The notes under the pieces are model-generated. The model searched no databases and was not told where the DNA came from. It worked only from the letters and a program-made list of their open reading frames with translations. This document shows positions 5,050 to 5,774 of a stretch of 64,000 nucleotides of DNA, in pieces; within the stretch, counting starts at the first letter, position 1, and the number at the start of each line of letters is the position of its first letter. A program made the translations under genes and the position numbers. Origin of the DNA: Melioribacter roseus P3M-2 (GTDB taxonomy: Bacteria > Bacteroidota > Ignavibacteria > Ignavibacteriales > Melioribacteraceae); the NCBI RefSeq assembly GCF_000279145.1, contig NC_018178.1, positions 3,233,688 through 3,297,687 of the forward strand, given 5' to 3'.

Positions 5050-5417
5050 AAAAACCCCTATAAAATTTAGACCGGCTGTAATATACTAAAATCAAGATGA
5101 CTTTTATAACAATCAAATATCTTCAAAAGACGACCATTTTATGCTCAAATCGACAAACCACTTATCAACTCCTTATTTTAAGGTAATTCGAGAAGATAGC
5201 TGTTTTCAAAAATTCATCGTCGAAGAAGAGAATATTTTACAGACGGCAAATATTAGAACGTTGCTACGGTTCTAACGCTTCGATAATGCTTTAATAGAGC
5301 CAGCCTTCATAAACCTCGCTACTTTGCGGAGATGGAGGGATGCTACGCAGAACCCTCGGTGGCGCTAATTTGCTTAATTAAATTCTTAAAAACTTTGATT
5401 ATGCTGCAACTCTGGAA
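5050..5417. other. Gene-poor region with tRNA-Ser fragment
   Basis: No intact gene was recognised in these 368 nt. A 44-codon reading frame at 5141-5275 (+) reads MLKSTNHLSTPYFKVIRED and onward in a protein-like way, but has no ribosome-binding site and no family I recognise; it may be a remnant. The 3' part of a tRNA-Ser gene is repeated at 5321-5365. The region continues into the broken GIY-YIG gene, so this segment looks like decayed accessory DNA. Confidence 0.5.
5321..5365 (-). repeat. Partial duplicate of the tRNA-Ser(CGA) 3' end
   Basis: Positions 5321-5365 repeat 5681-5719, the 3' end of the tRNA-Ser(CGA) gene plus 6 nt beyond it. The flanks ACTTTGCGGAGA and AACCCTCGGTGGCGC are identical; there is one substitution (T for G) and the T-loop bases TCG are replaced by a 9-nt block (GCTACGCAG). 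The starts are exactly 360 nt apart. Because the T-loop is destroyed and the 5' part absent, it cannot be a working tRNA. Such 3'-end copies are typical att-site scars of integrated elements, though local duplication is equally possible. Confidence 0.75.
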
Positions 5418-5662
5418 TTAGTGTATTATACTCTCTTTCTCAAGCCATTCACATCCTTCTTTGCTCTTAAAGAAAAGTTCGCGTCTGTAGGCTTCGCTTC
5501 TGCTATCGAATGTTTCGTAGTAAATAATTTTTAATGGCCGGCGTGATTTCGTGGAACGTACCTTATCGGCATTGTGAGTTTACAGTCGCTCTCTAAATTT
5601 GAAATGCTTCCGTAATAGTAACGGCGGTTTTTAAGGCTTTGAAGTACGTATCTAAAATACAT
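5418..5662 (-). pseudogene. GIY-YIG nuclease family protein, frameshift and stop
   Basis: Starting from ATG at 5660-5662 the minus strand reads MYFRYVLQSLKNRRYYYGSI then SNL, the opening of a small GIY-YIG domain. After SNLE the reading must change frame to continue as ERL-stop-THNADKVRSTKSRRPLK, then KIIYYETFDSRSEAYRREL and FFKSKEGCEWLEKES to a stop at 5418-5420. The joined product would be about 81 residues, the normal size of these stand-alone domains. One frameshift and one in-frame TAA (where a lysine codon is expected after RL) inactivate it. It lies about 20 nt downstream of the tRNA-Ser(CGA) gene on the same strand, between the real tRNA end and its partial copy. The family is related to the UvrC nuclease domain; its cellular role is unclear. 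Confidence 0.8.
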
Positions 5663-5686
5663 ACTTTAATTTCCGTTTTTACTTTG

Positions 5687-5774
5687 CGGAGAGGGAGGGA
5701 TTCGAACCCTCGGTGGCGCAAAGCACCACAACGGTTTTCGAGACCGCCCCGTTCAACCACTCCGGCACCTCTCC
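5687..5774 (-). tRNA. tRNA-Ser (anticodon CGA)
   Basis: The minus strand folds as a class II tRNA: acceptor GGAGAGG pairs with CCTCTCC, discriminator G, anticodon arm GCGGT-CTCGAAA-ACCGT giving CGA, a long variable arm (TGTGGTGCTTTGCGCCACC region) and the TTCGAATC T-loop. The 3' CCA is not encoded (CAA follows the discriminator). A partial copy of its 3' end lies 360 nt to the left. Confidence 0.95.

Follow-up and report, generated by a model that had tools for sequence, protein, structure and literature searches.

Several described systems share single traits with the locus treated here. SLX1 is a structure-specific nuclease acting on branched DNA, and we know of no solved protein of the UPF0213/SLX1 group that is mobile or linked to tRNA genes. 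In the engineered home-and-rescue gene drive, a nuclease directed against an essential gene travels together with a functional copy of that gene. SegB of the T-even phages, a GIY-YIG enzyme encoded beside tRNA genes, is said to cut tRNA-containing DNA and to drive the tandem amplification of the tRNA with the nuclease gene (PMC13096335). The REPtron combines a RAYT transposase with REP palindromes (PMC3733652). GIY-YIG homing enzymes, tRNA-end duplications and REP palindromes are thus already known as separate parts; the combination of a nuclease ORF with a palindrome-tagged tRNA copy was not found by a title-level literature search that included few subscription journals and no preprints.

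The window, a stretch of 64,000 nt of the Melioribacter roseus genome, contains a tRNA-Ser(CGA) gene accompanied by a damaged partial copy, which is probably the decayed end of a tiny, widespread element whose nuclease is broken and whose tag is eroded. The features of the locus, described partly with a profile (A1) built from five tRNA-linked ORFs of the same genome, are as follows.

5686 to 5774, minus strand: intact tRNA-Ser(CGA), the presumed target (ARAGORN; Rfam RF00005, 57.7 bits)
5680 to 5685, minus strand: the 6 nt past the tRNA 3' end, repeated after the copy (alignment; repeat search)
5588 to 5662, minus strand: N-terminal part of the broken GIY-YIG nuclease, covering model positions 1-25 (hmmsearch with the A1 HMM, E=8.8e-4)
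5436 to 5576, minus strand: C-terminal part of that nuclease, encoded in a different frame and covering model positions 30-76 (hmmsearch, E=6.5e-14)
5320 to 5368, minus strand: the tagged, damaged copy, comprising the tRNA 3' part and its flank (repeat search, alignment, genome probe)
5341 to 5349, minus strand: block of 9 nt at the T-loop position of the copy, interpreted as an eroded tag with no more than a 3-bp stem left, which is not significant by itself (alignment, shuffle test)

The initial annotation had placed a duplicated tRNA-Ser(CGA) 3' end, 360 bp away from the original, at 5321-5365. ARAGORN, Rfam and alignment confirm this duplication, with limits that differ by no more than 3 nt at either end; the two halves of the copy lie at offsets of 360 and 354 nt from the tRNA end. 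The flanks had been called identical: the match does include the 6 nt past the tRNA end, and the agreement is near-identity, with 2 differences in the aligned 49 nt when the 9-nt block is left aside. This block, GCTACGCAG on the plus strand, stands for TCG at the T-loop position of the copy, as annotated. A 64-nt probe from the copy has two matches only in the 3.3-Mb genome, the copy itself and the intact tRNA end, and a chance repeat was rejected on the strength of the latter match (E=3.5e-7). The interval between the repeats, which had been thought to hold a broken nuclease gene, indeed contains two GIY-YIG pieces in different frames and nothing else, and no integrase was seen in it; the C-terminal piece also matches Pfam PF01541, with one stop (E=1.7e-6). 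No intron family reached the gathering threshold in the window stretch and 20 loci, and the adjacent tRNA is intact. Unlike a group I intron with a homing endonuclease, the RNA gene here is uninterrupted by a self-splicing intron.

The genome of M. roseus (3,300,414 bp, one contig) gave 18 matches to the Pfam GIY-YIG model, of which 12 lie at seven tRNA loci: three ORFs in tandem at Pro(CGG), two each at Cys, Asp and Ser(GCT), and one each at Asn, Leu(CAA) and Ser(CGA). The remaining six are not at tRNAs. At the Pro, Cys, Asn, Asp and Ser(GCT) loci, the tRNA is repeated in part beyond the ORF, in direct orientation and together with its flank, and a palindrome replaces or sits in one arm of this repeat (TGGCGCC TCA GGCGCCA; CCCGCC TCA GGCGGG; TCCGTTAG CTAACGGA; TCCCGCC GG GGCGGGA; and two hairpins in the Ser D-loop). 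The Ser(GCT) locus is mirrored: the ORF is preceded by a copy of the promoter flank and 5' part, and followed by the intact tRNA. At the Leu(CAA) locus a repeat was looked for and none was found. The intact Cys and Asp tRNAs have tagged copies upstream too, with no ORF between. An orphan piece of a tagged tRNA-Asp copy, 97% identical to the tagged copy at the Asp locus, lies far from any tRNA at C1:1598046-1598084 (L017, L200).

Three other GIY-YIG loci of this genome (L003, L006 and L007) form, together with low-scoring loci elsewhere, a second group that is not located at tRNAs. A REP resembling GTCATTGCGAG was found within 500 nt of 9 of the 38 arrays scoring below 80, versus one of the 136 tRNA-type arrays. 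REPs tagged with CGTC and lacking a dedicated transposase are described in PMC3733652, and it is our guess that the REPs near the second group belong to this class.

Taken alone, the window copy would be compatible with a simple duplication of the tRNA's 3' end on the spot, or with a shrunken integrase island, the nuclease being a bystander in either case. We consider this highly improbable, given that the same arrangement recurs at six other tRNA loci of the genome and in most arrays elsewhere, that the ORFs are under selection (see below) and that an integrase between the repeats is absent. The locus does share with tyrosine-recombinase islands at tRNA 3' ends the duplication of the 3' part and flank and the retention of an intact tRNA. 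It differs in having no integrase gene, in its size, in the palindrome inside the copy and in the existence of a 5'-side version with a duplicated promoter flank. Intact related units occupy only about 300-370 bp each, as judged from unit spacings, and the nuclease is the sole gene between their repeats. The copy had been interpreted as the mark of an integration: it does mark a mobile-element-like insertion, of which the broken nuclease is a part, while the shrunken island of the initial annotation falls away. Nor do the relatives all have the same copy with no insertion, since intact nuclease ORFs were found at many of their tRNA loci, and one genus offered an element-free orthologous tRNA-Gly locus.

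The protein was characterised using a second profile (A2), built from 32 tRNA-linked ORFs. All 32 members carry the GIY-YIG domain PF01541, and the catalytic residues Y16, R26, H30, E62 and K66 are invariant across them. An AlphaFold model (pLDDT 96.4) has Foldseek matches to UPF0213, SLX1 and I-TevI, and a profile search of the PDB gave 1zg2 as the best match (8.7e-15), followed by SLX1 (6.8e-8), with I-TevI weaker. The nearest relatives by profile and by fold are therefore UPF0213/SLX1 proteins, from which the ORFs here differ, as far as those proteins are known to us, by the presence of several paralogues per genome at RNA genes. The open frames measure about 80-130 codons, most of which is spanned by the 78-position profile, and no second Pfam domain was detected in the A2 members beyond overlaps of the GIY-YIG/T5orf172 type. 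The ORF encodes hardly anything past the catalytic domain; the lack of a separate DNA-binding region counts against homing.

The distribution of these ORFs was followed in twenty genomes (M. roseus included) scanned with the Pfam model and in 198 genomes of the phylum scanned with the A2 profile, 125 of which have a match at E<=1e-12. Arrays scoring at least 80 were selected on their profile rank, irrespective of neighbouring genes, and duplicates were removed by comparing the initial 120 nt of the leading ORF. Among the 84 new arrays obtained, 68 have a same-strand tRNA or tmRNA within 260 nt, none has one on the opposite strand, 58 have a copy and 17 consist of two or more units. The corresponding numbers for all 136 arrays are 107, 0, 91 and 28. 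The largest arrays have five units; one complete genome contains two arrays of three units whose ORFs are identical. A same-strand tRNA was absent within 260 nt in 16 of the 84 new arrays and in 29 of the 136 overall. Of these 29, 11 have part of a tRNA in their flanks, two are next to RNase P RNA and seven lie within members of another gene family; some of the rest are at contig ends. Such arrays weigh against a homing-like spread into tRNA genes, as does the building of the A2 profile from tRNA-linked ORFs.

Some loci depart from the common arrangement. At L046 the target is tmRNA, whose 3' end is copied past the ORF and carries an insert in the T-loop. At L162 (Ser GGA) and L189 (Pro GGG), nuclease ORFs are located on either side of a single intact tRNA, and at L162 a 5' copy precedes the tRNA and a 3' copy follows it. 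At L137 and L183 the ORF is directly beside RNase P RNA, between exact inverted repeats of 19 and 24 nt; by eye it seems to lie in the P3 loop, yet the whole Rfam match falls downstream of the ORF. Seven loci (L030, L054, L057, L060, L061, L063 and L071) form one clade in which the ORF stands between inverted-repeat arms of the CCCGTGAGATA type, by eye inside tyrosine-recombinase genes and at differing positions in them. The arms in this clade match exactly over 8-13 nt, in most cases close to the maximum reached by shuffling. Tagged units resembling RNA genes stand in tandem arrays with no ORF at L304, L309 and L314 (Sediminibacterium genome) and at G169:C42:52690-53085; these arrays hold four tRNA-Arg-like, four 5S-rRNA-like (5S by eye), six unknown and four tRNA-Asp-like units.

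In other phyla, named genomes were scanned with six tRNA-Cys-type proteins as seeds, and the best 80 of 225 loci were kept. A same-strand tRNA lies within 260 nt at 67 of these 80, with a median gap of 18 nt, and at one locus an opposite-strand tRNA is nearby as well as the same-strand one. The loci with a same-strand tRNA among the best 80 cover 25 of the 28 named phyla matched, many of which are candidate phyla, and a second, partial tRNA copy is present at 42 of the 80. Among the cultured carriers are Sediminibacterium goheungense DSM 28323 and Muriicola jejuensis KCTC 22299. Transport as phage or plasmid cargo was rejected: with one Cys-type protein as query, 20 phage and 9 plasmid records were obtained, all below 60% identity.

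The comparison with SegB (PMC13096335) shows a likeness in type: a free-standing GIY-YIG gene beside a tRNA (here on the same strand, in 68/84 arrays and 67 of the best 80 loci), and tandem growth. In contrast to SegB as described there, the element is chromosomal, occurs in many phyla, has an ORF of about the catalytic domain alone and is accompanied by a palindrome-tagged copy of the RNA gene. By sequence, too, it is nearer to UPF0213/SLX1, with I-TevI the weaker match. The REPtron (PMC3733652) is similar in joining a single nuclease-type gene with short palindromes; it differs in that its enzyme is an HUH tyrosine transposase and not a GIY-YIG protein, and the palindrome here lies within a copied RNA gene.

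A changed block of at least 6 nt lies inside the tRNA in 110 of 114 copies, and at this place 97 copies have a perfect stem of 5 bp or more. When the letters of each block were shuffled, 65 of the 110 tags were significant at p<0.05 and 34 at p<0.01; the other 45 are not significant singly, the window's tag among them. The T-loop of the window copy had been described as damaged. Replacement of an arm by a palindrome, or its insertion there, is the rule in related copies, which argues against random wear of an attachment site, even if the window copy itself retains a 3-bp stem only (p=0.63 against block shuffling). Its tag is read as eroded because its nuclease is broken too. All 10 tRNA-Asp copies have the tag in the T-arm, and in tRNA-Cys copies the most frequent junction is the one between positions 38 and 57 (5/14 by strict coordinates, alignment slips spreading the others). 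Mismatches in 151 hairpins, chosen for good pairing, include 6 G.T versus 8 A.C on the tRNA strand (p=0.79). As G.T is not in excess over A.C, a hairpin acting at the RNA level was rejected, and the palindrome appears to be kept as DNA rather than as RNA. Compared with tRNAs of the same isoacceptor in other genomes, the intact tRNA of the host is the best match of the copy in 120 of 145 cases, ties in 19 and is worse in 6; thus, the copy is made or homogenised locally.

The nuclease tree comprises 140 short rows of 77 columns, with 72 of its 137 inner branches drawn open; target labels were assigned by hand for 20 loci, and 13 unlabelled rows were left out, giving 127 rows. On this tree the target RNA changes 32 times, against a shuffled mean of 90.2, while host family changes 62 times (79.6 shuffled) and host genus 102 times (110.7), so that lineage tracks target far more than host. 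The tagged arm changes 25 times, the mean of shuffles within isotypes being 33.4 and none of 500 being as low. Given these few changes, nuclease lineage predicts both the RNA and the arm. In the Leu group, CAA, GAG, CAG and TAA loci are mixed, with ORFs on either side of the tRNA. Recognition of the tagged arm by the nuclease would produce both links, and that between lineage and target could be strengthened by homology-guided spread from one tRNA to similar ones.

The strongest rival of a nuclease-driven origin puts the palindrome first: a REP- or MITE-like palindrome would insert widely and be mobilised in trans by an SLX1-related GIY-YIG nuclease, and tagged copies would survive through the remaining intact one. 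The abundance of TCCGCC-N3-GGCGGA in three genomes (45, 42 and 41 sites, against 0 for the reversed control) fits this reading, as does one genome rich in it, where tRNA-like arrays contain the same palindrome, as do other repeats (20 regions examined). The orphan arrays in which tagged copies follow one another with no ORF, and the position of the ORF between inverted-repeat arms at two RNase P RNA loci and seven in another gene family, are also in its favour. However, the same palindrome is rare elsewhere, with 0-6 sites in 9 of 16 genomes, and the tracking of tRNA identity and tagged arm by lineage is left unaccounted for. In the M. roseus genome TCCCG-N6-CGGGA has 9 sites versus 1 for its control and TCCGCC-N3-GGCGGA 3 versus 0, and a very abundant dispersed repeat was rejected there. 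The palindrome-first explanation is judged unlikely. In favour of a nuclease-driven origin, the exact Asp/Gly tag pattern is found at 17 sites in 11 of the 198 genomes (controls 0), and all 11 fall among the 125 nuclease carriers (about 0.006 expected if the two were independent). At least 12 of the 17 sites have an ORF within 200 nt; the other five, with no listed ORF near them, count against it, and four of these make up a tandem array.

One pair of genomes of the same genus shows the site empty and occupied. The tRNA-Gly(GCC) gene followed by an OsmC-like gene is element-free in one of them, and in the other carries the ORF and a full tagged tRNA copy, with the promoter flank, the terminator and the neighbour gene recognisable at either end. 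In 17 further genomes searched the neighbour gene is present, without the tRNA in the stretch viewed. An occupied allele thus has one copy altered at the lineage-specific arm and an intact copy beside it. Loss of the target on insertion was rejected: in contrast to classical homing, the presumed target survives as an intact tRNA in the occupied locus, which counts against the homing reading.

The ORF is under purifying selection, with a median dN/dS of 0.15 (range 0.04-0.45 in 67 non-independent pairs). Such strong selection, the presence in many phyla and the tandem amplification might also be explained by a locus that serves the host, through tRNA gene dosage, as a decoy for tRNA-targeting nucleases or integrases, or as a regulatory RNA; PMC13096335 offers a parallel in SegB, a phage GIY-YIG enzyme that amplifies tRNA genes and so evades defence. 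The patchy occurrence (125/198 genomes at E<=1e-12), the wholesale change of targets, the broken copies (the window, L028 and L101) and stems without RNA-type bias make a service to the host rather improbable.

The reading we favour, with some confidence, is that the window unit would be a defunct representative of a family of minimal mobile elements, which spread in a homing-like manner and rebuild their target. It starts from the observed anatomy and its recurrence, the strand rule, the links of lineage to target and tag, the local origin of the copies, selection on the ORF, one empty site and the tandem arrays. A unit consists of one GIY-YIG ORF on the strand of a tRNA, sometimes tmRNA, gene. 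In the 3' version the ORF follows the tRNA directly, with the copied 3' part and flank at its far side; in the 5' version it directly precedes the tRNA, with the copied promoter flank and 5' part at its far side. One arm of the copy (D, anticodon or T) gives way to, or carries, the palindrome, and one intact tRNA is kept. The nuclease may recognise and cut the tRNA gene at the arm that is later tagged, recombinational repair of the break might then add the ORF and the altered copy, and the tagged copy would resist further cutting, while the need for translation would select for one intact gene. The survival of the intact tRNA beside the element could be due to rare expression, repair from the sister or context-dependent cutting.

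A bolder and more doubtful proposal is that these elements are a natural, bacteria-wide counterpart of the home-and-rescue drive. Essential genes for stable RNAs (those of tRNAs and tmRNA, and perhaps of 5S rRNA and RNase P RNA) would come under attack by a nuclease of about 80 residues, with every lineage specialised for a single RNA and a single arm. After each invasion a palindrome-tagged, uncuttable copy of the host's gene would stand beside the intact one, and tags lost from such units may have given rise to part of the palindromes dispersed in carrier genomes. It would differ from the engineered drive in being natural and in that the altered copy is the non-functional one, the intact copy being not visibly recoded.

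If the favoured reading is right, a very small selfish element, annotated merely as a GIY-YIG nuclease, would reside beside the tRNA genes of many phyla. Many tRNA-like fragments and pseudo-tRNA arrays in tandem, as well as some short palindromes, would find an explanation in it. It would also serve as a natural model for the way in which a nuclease can parasitise essential genes and let the host live, and as a source of tiny target-specific nucleases, the specificity of which would be legible from the neighbouring RNA gene.
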